Positions 2,932 to 37,000 of a DNA stretch of 40,633 nt are shown piece after piece. A program made the translations under genes and the position numbers. The stretch covers positions 1 through 40,633 of the forward strand of contig QKMY01000051.1 in assembly GCA_003242895.1 (NCBI GenBank), given 5' to 3'. Source of the DNA: Candidatus Margulisiibacteriota bacterium (lineage in GTDB: Bacteria > Margulisbacteria > Riflemargulisbacteria > GWF2-39-127). The notes under the pieces were generated by a model. The model had not been told where the DNA came from. It did no database searches and saw only the letters and a list, made by a program, of their open reading frames with translations. Each line of letters opens with the position of its first letter. The stretch's first letter is position 1.

Positions 2932-3972
2932 TCAGTATACTTTGAAATATGTTTCCCATCCATTATATTTTTTTGTATGCCCTTGTTGTGGTGAGTCGTA
3001 ATGATTAAAGCTGAAAGTTGTAAATTTGTCTGCATAGGATTGTTCTGCTAGCAGTTGCCTTAGTACCCTGGATAATGGAGCTGAATTATAATCAGTTGTG
3101 AAAGTTTCAAGGACAATCCAGAATTGCGTGGCAGGACGATTTTTTTTAATTGCTGCTCTTAATGGAGAAAGCCAGGTTGCGATATCTGTTAATGTTGCAT
3201 TTCCCGCACCGATACCATCCTGTACAGCGACTATATCTATTGGAGCGCTAACAATAATTCGACCCCACATTTCTGCGTATTGTAAAGCATTTAAGTCGGC
3301 ATGTGAAACAAAATATGGCGCAACCATAACGGGTTTGTTCATATTTGTGTGAATATATGTGGCGACATCGTTATAAACGCTGATCAAGTGTTTCTCAGCG
3401 GTGCTGTCAAAATTAAGGTTATTAACTTCCATCGGCAAATAAAATCCTGCGATTGTATCACCGTAGTTAGCTCCAAAAAGCTTCCAGAGTTCTTGCGCAA
3501 TCTGTTTGCTAAGGTTATATTCTTTGGTCAGCCAGACGTCGTCATTAGCACCTTTGCTCCACCAGTCGTTTGTATAGTTTAGCCCCAGCCAGACTTTTAA
3601 TCCTTGAGTTTTGGCAGCTTCAAGAGATAATCCAACAGGATCGGTTGCTGTTCCGGTAAACTTGGCTAATTCTGTAGGGTAATAAGCTTTCATGGTTGAA
3701 GGTGTGCTGTCTACCGTCCATTGCCAGATAAAATGGTCCATATGGACGTTATCCATATATTGTAACTCGGTGGTAAAATTGCTTGATGTCCATGATTCCA
3801 CCAGCCATGGCTGAATAAAACTCCCTGATAATGGTTTTTGAATTCTGTTTGAGTTAAGTTCCTGGATATCGGTGTTTTCATTAATACTGGTATTATTTTT
3901 TGCCAGCTCCCCGCATCCAGTTAACATAAACCCGAATACAAGCAGGCAAACATACTTCAAAATATTTTTCAT
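2932..3972 (-). CDS. DUF4434-like glycosidase-fold lipoprotein
   Basis: The 346-residue product begins with a lipoprotein signal: basic N-terminus, hydrophobic core and lipobox LTGC with the lipidated Cys20. Gly at +2 predicts sorting to the outer membrane. The mature part reads like DUF4434, a TIM-barrel family related to glycoside hydrolases. It has an N-terminal SGSFIQPW strand (49-56), VWLGLNYTNDWW (127-138) and GFYLPMEVNN (176-185), whose Glu182 is a plausible acid/base. Glu289 in FWIVLETF is a possible second carboxylate. An AAGGA Shine-Dalgarno (3984-3980) is seven bases before the ATG. It is transcribed alone and away from the helicase. Its LTGC-x-E-[LF]-A-[KR] signal closely resembles that of the kelch lipoprotein at 6892. 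The substrate is unknown, though surface polysaccharide is plausible. Family assignment is by pattern only. Confidence 0.75.
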   Translation of the reverse strand: MKNILKYVCLLVFGFMLTGCGELAKNNTSINENTDIQELNSNRIQKPLSGSFIQPWLVESWTSSNFTTELQYMDNVHMDHFIWQWTVDSTPSTMKAYYPTELAKFTGTATDPVGLSLEAAKTQGLKVWLGLNYTNDWWSKGANDDVWLTKEYNLSKQIAQELWKLFGANYGDTIAGFYLPMEVNNLNFDSTAEKHLISVYNDVATYIHTNMNKPVMVAPYFVSHADLNALQYAEMWGRIIVSAPIDIVAVQDGIGAGNATLTDIATWLSPLRAAIKKNRPATQFWIVLETFTTDYNSAPLSRVLRQLLAEQSYADKFTTFSFNHYDSPQQGHTKKYNGWETYFKVY

Positions 3973-6645: not shown

Positions 6646-6891
6646 CGTCAAGAGCCATCTCGTTTTGCGGTAAATTTTGAATTAACGATAGAGAATTTGA
6701 CCAGCAAAGGAGGGTTTTTAAATTTAAAAATCAAAATTGGCCATTATTGTTGACAATTTCTTCTTAATCAGCCAATAATGGATTGTATTGGCATATAAGT
6801 AATTCGTTATTTGTTTAGGGTCGGATTCAATTCTCGAAGTTTTATAAATATTTTTTTTTCAACATATATAAAAAATAAAGGGGAAATTGCT
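6646..6891 (+). promoter_or_regulatory. Operon leader: promoter within an inverted repeat, plus Shine-Dalgarno of the kelch lipoprotein gene
   Basis: CCATTATTG (6741-6749) and CAATAATGG (6773-6781) are perfect 9-bp arms. A consensus -35 TTGACA (6750-6755) starts right after the left arm, and a -10-like AATAAT (6774-6779) lies inside the right arm, with an 18-base spacer. This geometry suggests a repressible promoter for the operon at 6892-15249, with a ~105-base leader. AGGGGA (6879-6884) is the ribosome site for ATG 6892. An orphan AAAGGAGGG near 6704-6713 has no associated start codon. Confidence 0.55.
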
Positions 6892-8322
6892 ATGCCTAAA
6901 ATAGTCTATCTTTTTGCTATCCTGGTGTTATTAACAGGATGCAGTGAATTTGCGAGACAACAGCCTTCCTCGATAACCGGTATTGTAAAAAATAAGGATA
7001 ATGTGCCGTTATCAGGTGTCACAGTTAATTGTCAGGAGAAGTTTACAGTCTCCGGAGCAAACGGAATGTTTCGGATCGATGATATTGATCCTGGTGTTTT
7101 TATTGTTAAGGCGCTGAAAGACGGATACGTACAATATTCGCAATCAGTTAAGCTGGAAAGCGGAGATAACCTTGTAGACCTGGAATTACAGTATTCTTAT
7201 TACAATTATTCTTTGTCAGGAACTGTAAGTGACCAGGCTGGAAACCCTATCAACGATGTCTATATATACTATGTAAGCAGCGACTCTCCTTCATCCACAA
7301 TCTGGGATAAAACTGATATAAGAGGCAGCTATAAGATTCCTTACGTTCCCCGGGGGGACGGAATTATTACTTTTCAGCATACAGACTATGTAGTAGCTAC
7401 AACTAATTTATATTTTTATAATTCTGACAAAACTTACAATATTAAATTAGTTGCCAAAACAAAAGGACAAGGCTGGACCAGAGCTGTTGAAACTGCTGCC
7501 TGGACCGCCCGGGATGGGCATAACAGTATGGTATATGATAATAAAATATGGGTGCTTGGCGGAAACGACGGTTCTCCGAAAAATGATGTCTGGAGCTCTG
7601 GTGATGGCAGTCACTGGACCAAAAAAGTAGAAAATGCTGCCTGGACAGCTAGAACAGGTCAGTCAAGTATTGTTTTTCAAAATAAGCTATGGTTAATGGG
7701 CGGTAATGACGGTGTCCTGAAAAATGATGTCTGGTATTCGAGTGACGAAGGAATGTCCTGGCACATGGCAACTGCTAATGCCGAATGGTCGCCCCGTTCC
7801 GGACTGGCAACTGTTGTAACTGACAATAAGATCCTGGTGATCGGTGGTAATGACGGTGCTTACAAGAATGACGTCTGGAGCAGTTTAGATGGTATAACGT
7901 GGGTCAAAAAAGTAGAAAATGCTGCCTGGACAGGTAGAGAGGGTCATAAATGCGTATTTTTTAATAATAAAATCTGGCTTACCGGTGGCAATAATAGTTT
8001 TGGTAATGCCGGTGATATCTGGTACACTGCCGATGGTATTGAATGGAAATCGGTGAACGCAATAAATTCGTGGGCTGGCCGGTATCTGCACACGTCGCTG
8101 GTTTATGATAGCAAGCTTTGGGTGCTTGGCGGTACAAACGGGACCAAGAAAAACGATGTCTGGTATTCTGAAGACGGTACCACGTGGACCCGGTCTGCCG
8201 GAACAGCTGAGTGGCCTGCACGGAGCGGACATACCAGTGTTGTGTTCGATAGCAAGCTGTGGGTGCTGGGCGGTAGTGACGGTGCGGGGACCAGGTTGAA
8301 TGATATCTGGAATGCCAAGTAA
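6892..8322 (+). CDS. Lipoprotein with two carboxypeptidase-regulatory-like domains and a kelch propeller
   Basis: The ATG at 6892 is chosen over upstream in-frame codons because AGGGGA lies seven bases before it and the product then begins with a lipoprotein signal (LLTGC, lipidated Cys17; Ser at +2 predicts the outer membrane). The 476 residues continue with two ~90-residue beta-sandwich modules of carboxypeptidase-regulatory type (GIVKNKDNVPLSGVTV and GTVSDQAGNPINDVYI). Six kelch-like units follow, each with a W(V/L)xGGxxG...NDxW core, filling a six-bladed propeller to the C-terminus. The units are similar to one another (NAAWTAR-type linkers recur), indicating internal duplication. It is the first gene of the adaptor/SecA operon, 21 bases before the next. 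An outer-membrane receptor, chaperone or tether for the exported giant protein is plausible but unproven. Confidence 0.88.
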   Translation: MPKIVYLFAILVLLTGCSEFARQQPSSITGIVKNKDNVPLSGVTVNCQEKFTVSGANGMFRIDDIDPGVFIVKALKDGYVQYSQSVKLESGDNLVDLELQYSYYNYSLSGTVSDQAGNPINDVYIYYVSSDSPSSTIWDKTDIRGSYKIPYVPRGDGIITFQHTDYVVATTNLYFYNSDKTYNIKLVAKTKGQGWTRAVETAAWTARDGHNSMVYDNKIWVLGGNDGSPKNDVWSSGDGSHWTKKVENAAWTARTGQSSIVFQNKLWLMGGNDGVLKNDVWYSSDEGMSWHMATANAEWSPRSGLATVVTDNKILVIGGNDGAYKNDVWSSLDGITWVKKVENAAWTGREGHKCVFFNNKIWLTGGNNSFGNAGDIWYTADGIEWKSVNAINSWAGRYLHTSLVYDSKLWVLGGTNGTKKNDVWYSEDGTTWTRSAGTAEWPARSGHTSVVFDSKLWVLGGSDGAGTRLNDIWNAK

Positions 8323-11098: not shown

Positions 11099-13255
11099 AT
11101 GGCAAATGATACCAAGATATTTCATGAATCATGGTACAGAATCGCAAATGAAAAACTTTGTTTGCGGTCAAGTGTTAAAGTGCATCGCCAATTATTTCGG
11201 GGAGCGCGCTGGTATGTGCTCTCAGATCCTTTTAATAACCAGTTTTACAGACTCCGGCCCGAAGCTTATGAATTTGTTATAAGGCTTGGCCTTGACCGAA
11301 CTGTCGAAGAAGTCTGGATGGAAATGATTTCTGCTGCTCCTGAGTCAGCGCCTGGTCAGGAAGAGGTTATAAACCTGCTGGTACAATTGTATCAATCGAA
11401 TCTTTTGCATTACGAGATGCCTCCGGACAGCGCAAAACTTTTTGATCGGTATAAAAATAAAAAGCAAAGGATTATGAAATCCAATTTATTAAATATTATG
11501 TTCTTCAGGATACCGTTATTTGATCCTGACAGTTTTCTTAAAAATATACTTCCGCTAATACGGTTAATAATGAATCCTCTGGGTGCGATACTTTGGCTGA
11601 CAGTTGTTGGCTCAGCTATCAAAATTGTGATAGACAGGTTTGCGGAAGTATCAGTTCAAACACAAGGGATTATTAACCCTTCCAATTTGTTTCTTCTATA
11701 TATAGCAATGTTGCTGGTGAAAACTTTTCATGAATTCGGACATGCCTTCGCTGTGCGCAGGTTTGGAGGAGAAGTTCATATAATCGGTGTTATGTTTCTG
11801 TTGTTTAGCCCGGTTCCATATATGGACGCGACAGCTGCCTGGGCATTTAGAAACAAATGGCAGCGAATACTGGTAGGTGCTGCTGGTATGATTACCGAAA
11901 TCTTTGTCGCGGCATTAGCTGTATTTGTGTGGGCCAATACTTCGGGAGGATTGCTGCATTCACTAGCATATAACATGATGTTTGTTGCTTCTTTGTCAAC
12001 TGTCGTATTCAATATCAATCCGTTGTTGCGCTACGATGGTTATTACATGTTGTCGGATTGGCTGGACATTCCTAACCTGCATACAAAGGCAACACAACAA
12101 TTAACACACCTAGTTGAAAAATATGCGTTTGGTTATAAGCGGTCCACAAGCCAGGCCTATAGTTTGAAGGAGGCTTTTTGGTTAGCAATTTTTGGCGTTT
12201 TGAGCGGCATATATAAGCTGATTGTTTTTGCTTCAATAATATTTTTTATTGCTGACAGGTTCTTGCTTGCCGGCATTATTATGGCTCTTATCTGCTGCAT
12301 AACCTGGATAATCGTTCCACTGGTTAAACTTATAAAGTATTTAAGTTCAAGCCCGAAGCTGGAGCGAATCAGGCTCAGGGCTATAACTGTTGTATCCATC
12401 CTTCTACTTTTTGTTGTCGGGTTCTTTTATTATTTCCCTTTTCCTAACAGCTTCAGGGCTTCCGGGGTATTAAAGGCTTCTGAATATTTTGTCGTGAACA
12501 GTAAAGTTTCCGGCTATGTAAAAAAGATCGAAATCGAACCCGGATCACAAGTCAGTGCAGGTCAGCCTTTGATTATCCTTGAGAATAAAGAGATCGACCT
12601 ACAGATTAATGAGGCAATGGCTTCTCTTCAGGAATCTTATGCTATGAGACAACTGGCACTTGCCGAAAGGCCAGAGGATTTAGCTACGGTGGAGGCAAGG
12701 ATACAGGCAATTCAGACTAGACTTGATAGGTTGCAGCATGATCGGGAAGAGCTGGTCGTAAAGGCTGAGATTTCAGGCGTCTGGGTGGTTGGTAATGTAG
12801 CAGACTATTTGGGAATGTGGATTCGTCGGGGGGCGCCAATAGGTCAGATCATTAATGAAAGTGCATATTATTTCGCTTCGGTTATTCCAGAAGTCCATAC
12901 CTCTAGAATATTCGATAACGAAGTGAAAAGAGCTTCCGTGAAATTGGTCGGGCAGGCCGATACGGAAGTTCCGGTATTCAGGTACGTTAAAATTCCAATG
13001 GAGCAAACCATCCTTCCTTCTGCAGCGCTTGGCTGGAAAGCCGGTGGGGATGTGCCGATTGATCCTAACGACGCTCAAGGCGTTCACTCGACAGAACCTT
13101 TTTACGAAGTGAGAGCATATCTGGATAATAATAATGGTATGAAAATGTTTCATGGACGAACAGGGAAGATCAGGTTCGAGCTAACCAGCGAACCTCTGCT
13201 CCGGCAATGGTGGCGAAGTTTTCGTCAGCTAGTACAGAAACGATATCACTATTAA
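11099..13255 (+). CDS. PqqD-like / M50 site-2-protease-like / HlyD fusion membrane protein
   Basis: The 718-residue protein has a PqqD-like N-terminal domain (about 5-105; WYVLSDPFNNQFYRLRPEAYE), which in other systems binds a leader peptide. A multi-helix membrane domain follows with the M50 zinc motif HEFGH (211-215, inside a helix) and a distal NPLLRYDG (307-314) whose Asp313 is the expected third ligand. After the last helix (about 435-455) comes a periplasmic adaptor module: lipoyl half GYVKKIEIEPGSQVSAG, hairpin, second half, and a beta-barrel to the C-terminus. All catalytic positions are intact, so proteolysis is possible, though some such fusions may act only as transport scaffolds. 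It starts six bases after the GAF-HlyD gene and ends five bases before the SecA-like gene. With no ABC transporter nearby, it is the best candidate for the inner-membrane core of an export complex. Confidence 0.87.
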   Translation: MANDTKIFHESWYRIANEKLCLRSSVKVHRQLFRGARWYVLSDPFNNQFYRLRPEAYEFVIRLGLDRTVEEVWMEMISAAPESAPGQEEVINLLVQLYQSNLLHYEMPPDSAKLFDRYKNKKQRIMKSNLLNIMFFRIPLFDPDSFLKNILPLIRLIMNPLGAILWLTVVGSAIKIVIDRFAEVSVQTQGIINPSNLFLLYIAMLLVKTFHEFGHAFAVRRFGGEVHIIGVMFLLFSPVPYMDATAAWAFRNKWQRILVGAAGMITEIFVAALAVFVWANTSGGLLHSLAYNMMFVASLSTVVFNINPLLRYDGYYMLSDWLDIPNLHTKATQQLTHLVEKYAFGYKRSTSQAYSLKEAFWLAIFGVLSGIYKLIVFASIIFFIADRFLLAGIIMALICCITWIIVPLVKLIKYLSSSPKLERIRLRAITVVSILLLFVVGFFYYFPFPNSFRASGVLKASEYFVVNSKVSGYVKKIEIEPGSQVSAGQPLIILENKEIDLQINEAMASLQESYAMRQLALAERPEDLATVEARIQAIQTRLDRLQHDREELVVKAEISGVWVVGNVADYLGMWIRRGAPIGQIINESAYYFASVIPEVHTSRIFDNEVKRASVKLVGQADTEVPVFRYVKIPMEQTILPSAALGWKAGGDVPIDPNDAQGVHSTEPFYEVRAYLDNNNGMKMFHGRTGKIRFELTSEPLLRQWWRSFRQLVQKRYHY

Positions 13256-13260
13256 AACCC

Positions 13261-15249
13261 ATGAATATACTTAAAAGAGATTATCAGCGAACGTCTATCA
13301 GGAAGCATTCTCGAATTTATGACGGGCTGGATGCAAAATTTCATAATTTGTATCATTTATTCAAACATGGTCCGCATGTGCGTATAGAATTATTGTCGCG
13401 CGCAAGAGATGTAGATGGTCGCGCTGCTGAGTGGAGTAAGCTCAGCGATAAACATCTTAAATTAAAATTGGAAGAATTAAGGGAGCTTTTTCGTAGGGAA
13501 AAAGCAGATCAAAAAGTAGTTTTGCCACAAGCTTTTGCGGCTATAAGAGAAGTTGCCGGCAGAGAGCTTGGCTTGATTCCTTATCCCGTTCAAATTGCCG
13601 GGGCATGGGCCTTGTACAGGGGATACGTTTCTGAGATGGCGACAGGAGAAGGGAAAACTCTCGTTGCTGGCATGGCGGCTGTCCTTAACGCCTGGAGTGG
13701 TAATCCCTGCCATATTATTACTGTTAATGATTACCTGGCTGAGAGAGACGCTGCTTTACTCTCGCCTTTATACAAATATTGTGGATTGACGTGTGGGTGC
13801 GTTACCGGGGAGATGGACCATAATGCCAGAAAAACCGGATATAACCACGATATTGTTTATACTACCAGTAAAGAAATTGTTGCTGATTTTTTGAGAGATA
13901 GATTATGGCTTGGACCCAGGCAGCTCAGCGGGCGTCGTTTGATTAGTTTTTTATTGGGCAAGCGAGCTGAAATAGAACAGGGAGTCGTAATGAGAGGTAT
14001 TCACACTGCTATTGTTGATGAAGCGGACAGCATCCTGATCGATGAGGCAGTAACTCCGCTGATTATTTCCAAATCACAGGTAAATCAAGATTTTGTCCGT
14101 GCATGTGAAGTCGCTAATAGTATTGCAGCCTCATTAATTCCAGGGATTGATTATAAAATTGATCACCGCTATAAAGATATAGAACTCAGTCCGGGGTTTG
14201 AATCGAAACTGTCAGGAACGGGCAATGGTACCTCAGATTTCTATAATTCGCTCGAAAGGCGCATGGAACTAATAAAGCAGGCCATAACGGCTCGGGAATT
14301 CTTTCATAAAGATAAACAATATATTGTTCAGGACGGCAAGATCGTTATTGTTGATGAATTCACCGGAAGAATGATGCCTCAACGAACCTGGCAATCCGGT
14401 TTGCAACAGTTAATTGAAGCGAAAGAGAACCTGGAGATTAGCGGTACTTCAGAAACACTGGCCCGTTTAAGCTTTCAGCGGTTTTTCAGATTTTTTCATA
14501 AATTATCAGGAATGACCGGTACTGCTAAGGAAGCTGCTACGGAGATGTCTGGTATATACCATTTGCCGGTAGTCCCAATACCAGTAAATAAACCATGCAA
14601 GAGAAAAGTATATCCTGCAGAAGTATATCCGGATAACGCTTCCAAGTGGCGTGCAATAGTTGAAGAAATACGACAGCTTCATGTGAAGGGCAGGCCGGTT
14701 CTGATTGGTACCAGAAGCGTACAGGCCAGTGAACAACTGGCTGCGATGTTGCAGGAGCGTGGACTGGTATTCCGGTTGCTGAATGCGGTCAAGCACAAAG
14801 AAGAGGCTATGATAGTGACTCATGCCGGTGAGCCTGGGATGATAACTGTAGCTACAAATATGGCTGGTAGAGGTACTGATATTATCCTGGCAAGAGAGGT
14901 TGTCGAATTGGGTGGACTACACGTCATCGGTACCGAATGCCATGAGTCAAAGAGAATCGATCGGCAATTATTTGGCAGGGCAGGGCGGCAGGGAGACCCA
15001 GGCAGTAGCCGTCTGTTTGTCAGTATGGAAGACGAACTTCTGGTTCGTTATGTGCCTGGGTTCGTGAGGAGACTAGTAACCGTTTTGATCAAAAACAATC
15101 TCCCCGGAGGCAGGTTGGTAGCTTTGCAAATTGTAAATATCGCGCAGAATAATGCGCAGCGAATCGCATACAAAAGAAGAAAATCCGTGGTGCGTATGGA
15201 TACCTGGCTTGATGATTCTTTATCTTTTGCCTATGCGGATGTTGAATGA
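13261..15249 (+). CDS. Shortened SecA-like translocase ATPase
   Basis: From ATG 13261 the product is 662 residues. An in-frame ATG at 13207 overlapping the upstream gene is an alternative, and neither has a clear Shine-Dalgarno, so translational coupling is likely. SecA signatures are plain: ATGEGKT (Walker A, GEGKT at 129-133), DEADSILIDEA (253-263), a preprotein-crosslinking region ending QDGKIVIVDEFTGRMMP, SGMTGTA, TNMAGRGTDI and FGRAGRQGDPG. The chain stops soon after motif VI, at the beginning of the helical scaffold. Most of the scaffold/wing region and the C-terminal zinc tail are missing (housekeeping SecA is ~830-900 residues). It is therefore an accessory motor, not the general SecA. 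Its position between the M50-HlyD fusion and the LEPR-XLL giant suggests it powers export of that giant. Confidence 0.88.
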   Translation: MNILKRDYQRTSIRKHSRIYDGLDAKFHNLYHLFKHGPHVRIELLSRARDVDGRAAEWSKLSDKHLKLKLEELRELFRREKADQKVVLPQAFAAIREVAGRELGLIPYPVQIAGAWALYRGYVSEMATGEGKTLVAGMAAVLNAWSGNPCHIITVNDYLAERDAALLSPLYKYCGLTCGCVTGEMDHNARKTGYNHDIVYTTSKEIVADFLRDRLWLGPRQLSGRRLISFLLGKRAEIEQGVVMRGIHTAIVDEADSILIDEAVTPLIISKSQVNQDFVRACEVANSIAASLIPGIDYKIDHRYKDIELSPGFESKLSGTGNGTSDFYNSLERRMELIKQAITAREFFHKDKQYIVQDGKIVIVDEFTGRMMPQRTWQSGLQQLIEAKENLEISGTSETLARLSFQRFFRFFHKLSGMTGTAKEAATEMSGIYHLPVVPIPVNKPCKRKVYPAEVYPDNASKWRAIVEEIRQLHVKGRPVLIGTRSVQASEQLAAMLQERGLVFRLLNAVKHKEEAMIVTHAGEPGMITVATNMAGRGTDIILAREVVELGGLHVIGTECHESKRIDRQLFGRAGRQGDPGSSRLFVSMEDELLVRYVPGFVRRLVTVLIKNNLPGGRLVALQIVNIAQNNAQRIAYKRRKSVVRMDTWLDDSLSFAYADVE

Positions 15250-15255
15250 ATCAGC

Positions 15256-15645
15256 CTATTTTTTCTTGTTTAGGAAGATCCCCCATCGTTTCCCAACCCT
15301 AGGTATATCCATTTCTTCAGGTAAATAGCGTCCCGCATACTGGTTAATATCAAGGTCAAAAAATGAAAAAAATGATCTGGCAGCTACTGATAGATTAACT
15401 CCTTTTGTGATTTTATATGAACCGGGAGTATCTCCGTCATTTGTAAAATTCAGAATAAGAGCATTGTTGCTTTTTGAATAAGATAAAACAATGTGTGTGG
15501 CAAACTTAATGTTTTTGTCAGCTTTTCTAGCAAAACTAGCACTTAAAGTTATTGCATGAGATTTTGATATTGATACAAAAATTTCTCCTTTTTTAATTCC
15601 AGAGCTTTCGAATGTAACTAAATCATCCCAAACTTCATTGTTCAT
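15256..15645 (-). CDS. Conserved-looking small protein of unknown function
   Basis: The 129-residue protein is preceded by a textbook GGAGG seven bases before its ATG and by a -35/-10 pair, so it is very probably real. No catalytic motif, signal peptide or membrane segment is seen. It begins with WDDLVTFESSG, continues with alternating beta-strand patterns (FVSISKSHAITLSASF, HIVLSYSKSNNALILNF) and ends with a basic KRWGIFLNKKK. I recall similar small WDDLxTFE...SISKSG proteins from other, little-studied bacteria but cannot assign a function. It converges on the SecA-like gene with six bases between the stop codons, and its promoter is back to back with that of the giant gene. A regulator of the giant is one possibility; there is no direct evidence. 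Confidence 0.8.
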   Translation of the reverse strand: MNNEVWDDLVTFESSGIKKGEIFVSISKSHAITLSASFARKADKNIKFATHIVLSYSKSNNALILNFTNDGDTPGSYKITKGVNLSVAARSFFSFFDLDINQYAGRYLPEEMDIPRVGKRWGIFLNKKK

Positions 15646-16019: not shown

Positions 16020-19000
16020 ATGGGTAGTGAATCCAAATATCAATTAGAATCGTTAGAGCCAAGAGTTCTACTGTCGATAGATACGACGGGAGCAGGACTG
16101 ATTGTGTCTTCCGGAACTTCTGTTACGAGCAGCATTGAACAACAATGTTTTCTTGATAATTCCCAGAATGATTTTCATGATAATACCTATAATGTAATGA
16201 GCAGTGCTGATAGTCTGTTTGATCAAACACTATATCAGAACATTTTTTCGGTTGTTGATAATGACCAAAATACTCCGGTTGCAGATGATAGTCTTGATTC
16301 ACAAACTGTAACTTCAGATCGGTCTGTCGAGGAAGTTCAGCCAGTTCTTAACGCTTCAACTTCGAGTGCTTCCAGTATCGTTTTGGCTACTCAATGTGTG
16401 GCCCAAGCAGTTTCCGAGTCGATTCTTAATAATAGTGAAACTCGAGTTATAACACTTGACGCCGCAAATGCTCCGCCAAAAGTGAGTGTTATGGATAGTG
16501 CAGCGATGCGTGTTCTAACGCTTGACGCATCAAATGCACCGCCAGCCCAGGTAGTCAGTGGGTCGGGCTCTATAGTTGATAGTCAAGAATCCCAATTGCA
16601 GGAAGGTAGTAACCCTGGAGTTGGTAATGTGTTATCTATAGAATTACCACGTATACCCCTTCGCTCAGCAGTTGTTTCAACGAAAAGCACCGTGAATTTC
16701 AATCCTAATAAGCCAATTATCAATGTCAATGAATTACCCTCAAATAATGAAAATATTATAATAGGCAGTCCTGATTATAATTCCATAATCGAAATAGGGT
16801 CTCCTGATCAAAACGATAATAATCCGTTTCTGTTAACTGGCAATGTAACAATTATGGCTCCAATGCCTGGTGGTGAGGTTCATATTAATAGTCCTATTGT
16901 TGGCTCTGCTGGGGTTTCTTTTGTGATATATGGATCTGGGCATACAACAACCTATAGTGCTGGCATAATTACTGGTGGCGATATTATTATTAACGATTCG
17001 GTGATTATCGACGGAGATGTAACCTTAAGAGCAACGGGTAGCGTTTATATCTCAGGCTCAATAACTGGTAAAAATGATGGTATTGTTGATAACTTAATTA
17101 TTGAAGCTGGAACTACGGTTGAGCTCTTAGGTGATATCGGTGGCTCTGGTCTTTCGTCTGTTTCAGTTGATGCGGCTGGGGCGGTGAATGTTGGTGGTAA
17201 TGTTGCTGTTGATGGCAATGTTGTTTTTGCTAGTCGTGGTGCTAGTCTTGTTCTTGGTGGTAATATAGCCTCTCTTGGTGGAAGTGTAAACTTGGTTTCT
17301 GGTTTATTGCTTAGTATGGATTATGATATATCTTCTGGCGGAGGCGATATCTCTATTGTCTCTAGTGCGGGTATAGCTTCTTCGATTGGGGGATATATCT
17401 CGTCAGCTGGTAGTGGTGGGCTGACTGGTGTGTCTGGTGGCGAGATTCTTATAAAGAATGCCGGGGTTGGTAATATATTATTGCTTGGCAATATTGATTT
17501 TTCTGGCGGTAATTCATCGGGCGCTGGAATAGCCGGAGCTTCCGGTGGAGTTGCTACGGTTGTTAATGATTCTGGATCTATTTCTGTTGGAAATATAATT
17601 GGTCTGGGCGGTCTAAGTACTGGTGGTGGAGTTTCTGGAGCTTCTGGCCTGTTTCAGGTGTCTTGCGCTGGCGGTGCAGGTCAGTCTGTCGGTTCATCTA
17701 TTTTGACTGGCAAGTTAAAGGTGATGGCTAGCGGTGGTAATATATTGCTTGATAATCAAGCTAATGATAGTGATTCTGTGGCTTTCAATATGAATGGTGG
17801 CGGTAGCGTTGTTTATGTTGATTGCGATGATGTTGTTGTTGATGTAATTGGTGTTGCTGGAAGCATGGGTGAATCTCTGCCTTCTGTGGCTGGCGTAGTA
17901 TTGTCCGGTGGTAGCGATGATGTAGATGTGAGATCTCTCAATGGTAATCTATCTGTTAGTGGTGATGTCGTTGTTGGCGGGATTGGTCTGGGTGATTTTC
18001 TTGGGCTGAATTTAGAGAGTTACTTGTTACAACTATTTTTAGAGCTGGATAATTTGGGAGGGATGATCAATGGGTTTACTCCATTTGACAGTAGCATCCC
18101 TGTTATTAATAAAAGCATCAATGGACTGTTTACTTCAGCCGGATACAAGATTGGCGATCTGCTAAAATTCCATGATGCTTTGGCTACATATTTCGCATTA
18201 CCTGATGAGCCTGAGATTAGCGGGATCGTCAATGCGATTAAGGCTGAGATCAATCCTAAATTAGCCGGTTCTAATCTGGGAGCATCTCTTACATATATTA
18301 ACGGCAGTCCACAATTGATTTTTGATGTCTCCTTCGATATAAACCCTCAATTTGGAGTAAATTTTGATCTGGGACCGTTTTTGACTGCACTAGGTCTGGA
18401 GTCCGATGGAGTTGCTTCTGTTTCCCTGCAATCTGGCATTGCGATTGATATAGCCTTTGGCATCGATCTAAACAAATTGCTTGATGGTGGTATCCCTATT
18501 GCAGAAACAGTTTTTTTCATATTACGTAATATGGATATCGATGTCCTGTTAGACCTTAATAATATTAATATCGGAATGGATACAGGTTTTCTTCAAACTG
18601 ACTTGAACAATGCCTCGATCGATGTGAATACCGGCGCAAATATCAAGCTTAACGGGATTGATCAAAAACTATATTTGTCAGATATTAGCGGTAAGAGTTT
18701 TGATGAGATATTTACAGTACAGCTTTCAGATGCCGAGATAGAACTTGTCGTTGAAGATGTTTCGATGTTTGCCGGACAGCAGGGTACCGGTTTGCTGATG
18801 ACTGTTTCAGACCTGGGGTTAGTTATGTTGGGCCATTTTGCGCAGGATGACACCACCGGGGAGCTGCTTGCTCCGAGCTGGACGTACGCAATGACCGGAA
18901 TTGGCACAGGTTCTTTGATAGGAATTAATGATATTAGTCTTCAGGGTAATGTAAAGATAAGGAAGAATACTACCGGTCAGGAGCTTGATAAGACATTAGG

Positions 19001-34000: not shown

Positions 34001-37000
34001 CCTTAAATTTAATGCTTCTTTTAAAGTAGTAGTAACTGGGGGTGAATGGCGTTTCGATTTTATTGCCAGTATTGATTTTTTTGGGATTGTAACCCTTAAC
34101 GGTTATGGCTATGTTGATTCCGACGGTAATTTCAGTGTGGACCTTAGTGGCAGGATGACTCTAGGGAGTTCCAGCTTCGGGTTGGTAGGCGATTTCAATT
34201 TTCATCTAAGCTCTGAGCTGATCAAGTCACCTCCACCATCTCAGGAAGAACATTATAAGTTTCTTTTGAGTGGTTCGGCCTCAGTAGAGGCGAGGGTGTT
34301 TGGTATCACACTTGGCGGCATTGGCCTGGGTTTTTCCTTTGGGGCTGAAGGTTCCGGTACTGTCAAAATTGAGCTAAGTGTTACTGTAAGTATTAAGATC
34401 CTTTTCGTTAGAATAAGCAAAACTGCTTATTTCACCATTGGTTATATGGAATTGCCAAAGCCTGTGTATCTGGCTGGTGATGCGGGCAATACGCCGGTGG
34501 CGGCGCATTCGTGGAGCGGAGGTAACCTTTATCTTAATATGGGAGATACCCGAGGACAATACAGGGATCTGGCAAATAGCGCACTCGATGAATCATATTT
34601 TATTGAGCAGGTTGCAGGGACTGCTCAGAATGCGACTATTAAGGTTACTGCCATGGGCCGCAGTAAAATATACGAGAATGTTACTGCGATCTATGCCGAT
34701 GGCGGCAATGGTAATGATTCGATAACTATTAAAGATAGTGTGAAGATCCCCGTATACATAAACGGGGGAGCCGGTGATGACATAATAATTTGTGATAGCA
34801 AAGGCCTTGTATCTATAAGTGCTGGTAGCGGGTCTGACTATATACATGCGTCCGGCAACGGTACTATTTATATTGAGGGTGGGGATGGCGATGATTATAT
34901 CGAATATACCGGGACAGGTACAACGACGCTGAAGGGTGATGCAGGCTCTGACCGTATTATCGGCGGCAGCGGAGCTGATACTATTTACGGTGGAAATGAT
35001 AATGATGAAATTGATGGTAATGGCGACGCAAATACTATTTATGCGGGCGCCGGAGATGACAAGATCAATCTTAATACTCTTGGTTTGGGCAGCACGATCT
35101 ATGGTGAAGGTGGGAACGATATTTTCGCACATTTCGCAACGGTCAATGCTGATAATATAGTGATTTCAACGCCGGCACAGGATAGAGTTTTAGCTCAATA
35201 TGTTAATGGGGGATCTATTAATTGCTACAATGTAGAGCAAATTGTTCTCGATGCTATGAGTGGTTCAGATAATATTACTGTTCGAGACCTGAGAAATTCC
35301 GGCTTGAACAAATTAACCGTTAATCTGGGGCAACAGGTAGTTACTACCGGATATGAATATGTTCTTGAAGACCTTGATGGCGATTCGGCAACAACAGGTG
35401 ACATCGTCAGCGTGTATACCCCGATTAGATCTGTATATAACGATGGAGCAACGGACACGATAACGATCGAAGGAAATGATACCGAGGATTCCTTTCTAGG
35501 ATATCTGATCAACTCTGATCCACTCACTGGCAAGATGCAGGATGTCAGGGTCGTTAACCAGGGAGTCAGTAATATCATCATTTCGGGCAGTGTCAGGTCT
35601 GAAAGCGATCGAGTGGTAATTGACGCCAAGGGGGGCAATGATACTCTTAACTTTTCTGGGTTTGGGCCAATCAGCGCAACAGATACAAAAATATATCCGG
35701 ATATAATAATTGTAGACCTTCGAGGCGGAGCGGGAAATGACCGGCTGATAGGAACTCAATATAGCGATATCCTTAACAGCGGGGACGGCGATGATCTTGT
35801 TACCGGAGGAGAAGGTAAAGACTATTTCTTTGATTCCGGCGGCAACGACACCTTACTGGAAACTAATAATAAAGATATGTCCTTATTCAATAATAAATTT
35901 GTTGTAGGTACTATCCTCAATAATTCCGGCGGAGTGTTCCTTAAAGAGACGTTTAAGAGTGATAGCGAGCTTGCAGCGATAATTAATAATAGTGATGATC
36001 CTGAGTTGACGCTAGCTGTTCTTGGTGATTGGTATTCCTCCGGTGCCGTAGTCGAAGATTTGAATAACATTTTTGATATCGCTATGATCTATGGTGGCAA
36101 AGGCAATAATACGATTGTTGTCGGGGACCTGGATAATTCGATCCGGGTAGGGGCAACGTCTATTTATGTCACTCCGTGGATCGGGACGGTATATATCGAT
36201 ACCAAAGGCAATGAAGCAGACATCTATGCGGAAAATATAATCCTGAATATGAGAGGTGCCAGCGGGTCTTATTACAATCTCGACAATAACGGAACCTCAG
36301 GCGTGTGCCAACTGGTTGTGAACGGCACTAACAAGTCGGATACCTATACTATGAACGCGTCCGGCAGCGGAGCTTATAGTGTCGGTAATCTTGTTGTCGG
36401 TGATGCAGGTAGTGTTTCTTCCGAAAAGATAATCTTCAGGGCGATGGATAGATTGATGATCAATTCTTATGCCGGTGATGATCATTTCTTATCAAATAAT
36501 ACAGCGATAATAACTATTGTAGATATGGGCAGCGGTGATGATGAAATAGTAATCGGAACAGTACCGATGATATCGGATACCGGTAATCGTACGTTAGAAT
36601 ATCCTAATGGTGTCCCGGTTGCTGATACTAATAATATGACTAATGGTAATTCGGCTCCATTGTTTATTTTGGGATCAGGTCAGAATGATCGATTTGAAGT
36701 TAATCATAATCGGGCTGCTTTGTATCTCCATGGGGGTGCAGGAAACGATATCTTTTTGCTTAAGACCTTTCTTGTTTTAAAAGAAAACACAACTAACCCT
36801 GATCAGATAACTAACTTGTCAAATGTTTTTGGTGGTTCAGGTATGAATCGCTATAATTACCTGCAGAATGCTCCGGTATCGATTAATGGCGGAACTGGTG
36901 TTGATACTATCGTAATTGTCGGGACCCCTATTGGCGATGTGTTCGTAATAACGGATACCTATGTTGCCGGTGCCGGTAGAATAGTTAATTTTAAGGGTAT

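Follow-up and report, generated by a model that had tools for sequence, protein, structure and literature searches.

Kamneva, Poudel and Ward (2015, PMC4452313) described “secondary SecA_DEAD” proteins that lack the scaffold/wing region and are encoded in a conserved neighborhood with M50, HlyD and GAF-HlyD proteins. They proposed a division of labor in which the M50 protein provides the route across the membrane and SecA acts as the ATPase, called the biological role of the locus “completely unknown” and did not mention giant proteins, LEPR or PqqD. The stretch of DNA analyzed here (the window, 40,633 nucleotides) carries a further member of this locus. As in the 2015 description, a second SecA_DEAD protein occurs beside a canonical SecA, lacks SecA_SW, has M50-HlyD, HlyD and GAF-HlyD neighbors, belongs to a clade apart from canonical SecA and is not accompanied by an ABC transporter. 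What differs is the range of hosts, with the window's own phylum and the Fibrobacterota as new ones, and the addition of a likely LEPR-XLL cargo and a PqqD-like domain.

Like canonical SecA (SecA1), the short SecA of the window contains NBD1, PPXD, NBD2 and all motor motifs, but it has no wing, two-helix finger or zinc tail, retains only the first scaffold helix and falls on a separate branch. Its domain content is nearly that of SecA-N68, a laboratory truncation of Escherichia coli SecA (PMC5603524), which is artificial, whereas the natural short SecA retains a conserved tail at its C-terminus and belongs to an operon. Accessory SecA2 proteins are likewise second SecAs in their genomes, presumably with selected cargo, but the known ones retain an altered scaffold/wing, of which the short SecA has none, and no SecY2 is encoded in this genome. 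A SecA2/SecY2 system was rejected because a genome search found one SecY, a normal one, and because SecA2 models scored 396-515 bits on the short SecA, far below their cut-offs of 725-1100. Type I secretion (HlyB-HlyD-TolC) of giant RTX adhesins shares with the locus the HlyD adaptors, the TolC genes found at several loci and a huge RTX cargo; it differs in that a SecA-type motor and M50-HlyD would take the place of the ABC transporter and in that the proposed leader is N-terminal.

The window cassette consists of four tightly packed genes on the plus strand, for HlyD, GAF-HlyD, M50-HlyD and the short SecA (Table 1). Counterparts of the HlyD adaptor are found in locus L003 and most other loci, and those of GAF-HlyD in nearly all.

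Table 1. Features of the cassette and the adjacent giant gene in the window
Feature	Position	Strand	Details
HlyD-type periplasmic adaptor, 280 aa	8344..9186	+	HlyD_D23, HlyD_3; RND_mfp above cut-off
GAF-HlyD fusion adaptor, 633 aa	9191..11092	+	GAF and HlyD domains
M50-HlyD membrane protein, 718 aa	11099..13255	+	Peptidase_M50 29.6 bits, above cut-off
Short SecA-like ATPase, 662 aa	13261..15249	+	PPXD 283-386; final confident helix 617-642 = scaffold start
Walker A GEGKT (residues 129-133) of short SecA	13645..13659	+	Invariant in 26/26 aligned short SecAs
Truncated scaffold helix and family-specific C-terminal tail AQ..A.R...R....D.WL..SL.F	15109..15228	+	Common end in all relatives
Giant ORF, ≥8,204 aa, open at contig end	16020..40633	+	Proposed cargo; RTX HemolysinCabind repeats 1.3e-9
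LEPRVLL, N-terminal LEPR-XLL motif of giant	16053..16073	+	NF012209 19.5 bits, cut-off 17
RTX calcium-binding nonapeptide repeats in giant	34905..35009	+	PF00353, 38.3 bits

The open reading frame of the short SecA runs from its first ATG at 13207 to 15249 (680 aa). The start at 13261 is better supported because the closest homologue, also 662 aa long, begins at the equivalent place (MNPIAADYIRT, aligned with MNILKRDYQRT in the window) and because the M50-HlyD gene stops at 13255. Pfam models for SecA_DEAD (317 bits), PPXD (85 bits) and P-loop_SecA (196 bits) matched the protein, while SecA_SW and SEC-C did not. DEAD (residues 253-256), GMTGTA and NMAGRGTDI are intact in addition to Walker A, and the motor motifs are strictly conserved across the 26 aligned short SecAs, all of which keep the motor and PPXD and lack SecA_SW by Pfam. 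The window protein is thus a scaffold-less SecA-type motor. The first-pass annotation of this DNA had claimed as much, with intact ATPase motifs, a chain that stops at the start of the scaffold, and the rest of the scaffold/wing and the zinc tail missing; each of these points was borne out, the end lying about one helix into the scaffold.

The distribution of the short SecA closely follows that of M50-HlyD. Full-length M50-HlyD was found in 33 of 168 Fibrobacterota genomes, with one copy truncated by the end of its contig. A short SecA was present in 31 of these 33 genomes and in none of the 135 others, and the two M50-HlyD-positive exceptions are contig-end fragments. With the short SecA as the query, short forms in the Fibrobacterota scored 594-782 bits and canonical SecAs at most 442 bits. 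The two genes are 5 bp apart in the window, and their spacing is tight across phyla. M50-HlyD, which the first-pass annotation had picked as a candidate partner, is therefore the most consistent genomic partner of the short SecA. This partnership had already been proposed in 2015 (PMC4452313), and the annotation reached it independently. No other of the 55 genomes from the window's own phylum contains full-length M50-HlyD, so the locus was probably acquired there; no relatives were found in viral contigs. Some short SecA matches in the Fibrobacterota contain an in-frame stop, genuine or due to sequencing error (L106, L107, L110, L116, L206 near 1330).

M50-HlyD consists of a PqqD-like N-terminal domain (residues ∼20-105), an S2P/M50 membrane core and a C-terminal HlyD barrel-sandwich. 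It contains HEFGH at residues 211-215 and D313, the HExxH and second-motif Asp by which its sequence resembles active M50 (site-2) proteases. Since H211, E212, H215 and D313 are invariant in 27 family members, the protein is probably an active protease. The PqqD similarity emerged only in a family-wide scan, in which PF05402 matched 18 of the 27 members (best E value, 1.6e-6); the match on the window's own protein was below threshold, and its N-terminal fragment alone had no Pfam match. In peptide-maturation systems, PqqD-type domains bind the leader peptide. AlphaFold2 models were made for single chains from input alignments without plasmid rows. The model of M50-HlyD (mean pLDDT, 80) shows an N-terminal domain of three strands and three helices (beta3-alpha3), and a Foldseek search with the HlyD part returned MacA/MexA. 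No ABC ATPase or transporter was found among the window proteins scanned, and no TolC gene is present in the window. Elsewhere in the genome there are 17 OEP matches (TolC-type outer membrane factor), and a TolC gene adjoins the cassette in L003, Methylosinus and Thalassospira.

Downstream of the short SecA lies the start of a giant open reading frame whose N-terminus reads MGSESKYQLESLEPRVLLS. It scores above the cut-off for LEPR-XLL proteins (NCBIfam NF012209) and, like them, is very long and bears the motif N-terminally. Among the 55 genomes of the window's phylum, this genome alone contains an NF012209 match above the cut-off, and it is likewise the only one with the cassette. In the Fibrobacterota, LEPR-XLL giant frames of at least 3,700 aa occur in 19 of 33 system-positive and 1 of 135 system-negative genomes (Fisher p = 2.7e-15, a value that ignores ancestry and overstates independence because of related Fibrobacter genomes). 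One of the 19, G145, scores slightly below the NF012209 cut-off. In G168, the sole M50-HlyD-negative genome with a LEPR giant, a cassette-type HlyD gene adjoins the giant. At least 17 giant frames end no more than about 1.6 kb from an M50-HlyD gene. NF012209 matches in short Fibrobacterota frames (27-250 aa) were set aside as noise or fragments. The cassette contigs of G075, G098 and G204 yielded no LEPR giant, and the motif was not seen at the readable start of the giant in G071; in G132 the motif is at the giant's start and the frame is broken by one in-frame stop.

On alphaproteobacterial plasmids, all nine cassette-associated giants whose start could be read, from Rhizobium to Thalassospira, carry [LFIM]EPRx[LM]L. 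The leaders are mostly basic and continue with [FY]x[IVL]ExLEPRx[LM][LMF]; none reaches the hydropathy of a typical Sec h-region, the best 12-residue mean being 1.8. One alphaproteobacterial leader matched Pfam Planc_extracel below threshold (E = 0.26), and a tie of LEPR leaders to this planctomycete motif may be regarded as a lead. The link between the cassette and LEPR-XLL giants is thus seen in three unrelated lineages, making these proteins the likely cargo, which is new relative to the 2015 description. No export route for the LEPR-XLL motif was found described in the literature searched. On plasmids of Thalassospira and Tistrella, M50-HlyD occurs together with a LEPR giant, yet no SecA match was found there; this suggests that it is M50-HlyD that recognizes the leader and that the motor can be substituted or has its gene elsewhere.

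A Pseudosulfitobacter plasmid (L058, L177) contains two complete cassettes, each with its own ∼38-kb giant gene, and four Fibrobacterota genomes (G123, G130, G152 and G191) have two cassettes each, mostly with both adjoining giant LEPR-XLL frames.

From gene content, linkage, the conserved truncation, the intact motor and M50 motifs, the PqqD similarity and the LEPR leader, we consider it fairly probable that the short SecA serves as the ATP-driven motor in a dedicated type-I-like exporter, with the neighboring giant LEPR-XLL surface protein as its cargo. In this model, cytoplasmic reading of the giant's N-terminal LEPR-XLL stretch would fall to the PqqD-like domain of M50-HlyD. The M50 membrane core would act as the inner-membrane passage or as its gate and possibly cleave the leader, and the short SecA motor with its PPXD clamp would drive the unfolded chain forward. 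The connection to a TolC-type channel would be made by HlyD, GAF-HlyD and the HlyD portion of M50-HlyD, with folding of the RTX-containing cargo on the outside. We infer the physical contacts, the recognition and cleavage of the leader, the direction of transport and passage through M50-HlyD rather than SecYEG. The exporter model is supported by the co-occurrence and tight spacing of the short SecA and M50-HlyD genes, the linked LEPR giants with leaders that are not Sec-like by hydropathy, the PqqD matches in the M50-HlyD family, the invariant M50 residues, the TolC neighbors, the RTX repeats and the lack of an ABC ATPase in the window. Against it stand the Thalassospira and Tistrella plasmids without a SecA match, the cassette contigs of G075, G098 and G204 without a LEPR giant, the giant of G071 without the motif at its readable start, the subthreshold PqqD match on the window protein and the lack of a TolC gene in the window.

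A bolder version of the model is that this is a distinct secretion pathway, in which a scaffold-less SecA would drive giants through a PqqD-M50-HlyD protein that replaces the type I ABC transporter and that recognizes, and maybe cleaves, the N-terminal LEPR-XLL leader. We regard this combined reading as plausible, though somewhat short of probable. On the exporter model, the motor half of SecA would be able to function apart from its scaffold, and the model may account for the export of single 5,000-13,000-residue proteins by some bacteria. The link between cassette and giant supplies a defined cargo along with candidates for the leader and its reader, so that the role called completely unknown in 2015 is now testable.

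The first-pass annotation had also held that a SecA without a scaffold could not couple to SecYEG in the usual way. This was too strong. SecA-N68, which is E. coli SecA truncated at residue 610, is missing these domains too; it is unable to translocate, yet its affinity for SecYEG is high and its ATPase is constitutively active (PMC5603524). The single-chain AlphaFold2 model of the short SecA (mean pLDDT, 80) comprises the SecA motor and PPXD, a last helix at residues 617-642, corresponding to one scaffold helix, and a low-confidence tail. Foldseek returned only SecA structures as top matches, with TM scores of 0.75-0.76 to SecY-bound 6itc/5eul and mostly 0.59-0.69 to free SecA; the predicted structure thus matches SecY-engaged conformations no worse than those of free SecA. 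Together with the motor and PPXD retained in all 26 aligned short SecAs and the single normal SecY of the genome, these results are compatible with a short SecA that acts as a substrate-specific accessory on the housekeeping SecYEG, starting or regulating export of the giant, and with HlyD and M50 proteins that take part at the outer membrane in a later step. We consider such a role unlikely, given that N68 is incapable of translocation, that hydropathy gives no evident Sec signal peptide in the giant and that the short SecA gene is linked to M50-HlyD and not to sec genes.

The short SecA might instead be a cytosolic holdase or unfoldase that prevents folding of the giant, or a regulator of the operon, with M50-HlyD and HlyD/TolC carrying out transport alone. 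The GAF domain encoded in the operon suggests regulation, and in Thalassospira and Tistrella M50-HlyD and a LEPR giant occur with no SecA on the same replicon. This is a distinctly improbable reading, however, as the window cassette encodes no other ATPase and the motor motifs of the short SecA are under strict conservation.

The other SecA of the genome, on contig C21, is full-length (SecA_SW, 218 bits; SEC-C, 32 bits), 220 aa longer than the short SecA and 38% identical to it; the short SecA ends opposite residue 635 of its 855. None of the 26 aligned short SecAs extends past the C-terminus of the window protein, and the relatives are all of similar length. The mean frequency of the commonest residue is 0.60 in the final 30 residues versus 0.29 in the linker before them. 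The shared end column and the conserved tail in all 26 aligned relatives indicate that this C-terminus is a family feature. From 15249 to the start of the giant at 16020, the plus strand has no ORF of at least 60 aa, so no frame is available to restore a 200-aa wing/scaffold. In a quick tree, made without the sequences of the 2015 set, one branch with an SH-aLRT of 100 separates 31 short from 11 canonical SecAs. A frameshift, the outcome that the first-pass annotation had set against its own reading, is ruled out by the ORFs and the alignment, and the truncation stands; for the family, a frameshift or pseudogene origin was rejected on the conserved length and tail. That the short SecA is simply a broken or frameshifted SecA is hardly credible: ∼220 aa are missing relative to the canonical protein, but all relatives share this endpoint and a conserved tail, a canonical SecA is encoded separately in the genome, and the short and canonical forms lie on opposite sides of a fully supported branch.

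A small DUF3467 protein is encoded between the giant and the HlyD-type genes in most alphaproteobacterial loci (L057, L058, L059, L162, L163, L164 and L166). It is a steady cassette partner, also found in some Fibrobacterota loci (L121, L122, L124 and L125) and absent from the window. SapC-family genes lie in or beside the cassette on two Rhodobacterales plasmids (L177, 16866-17687; L157, 3558-4355). In the window, two consecutive Fic-domain proteins are encoded at 262-1386 and 1585-2778, the second with DUF4172, and a 129-aa ORF with no family match (15256-15645, minus strand) lies between the short SecA and the giant. A Kelch/carboxypeptidase-regulatory-like protein (6811-8322) ends 21 bases 5' of the HlyD gene, and L003 encodes, downstream of its cassette, a protein whose sequence includes a comparable regulatory-like stretch. 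A DUF4434 protein is encoded at 2932-3972 on the minus strand, and in Thalassospira a DUF4434 gene (L059, 24557-25519) adjoins the cassette TolC.
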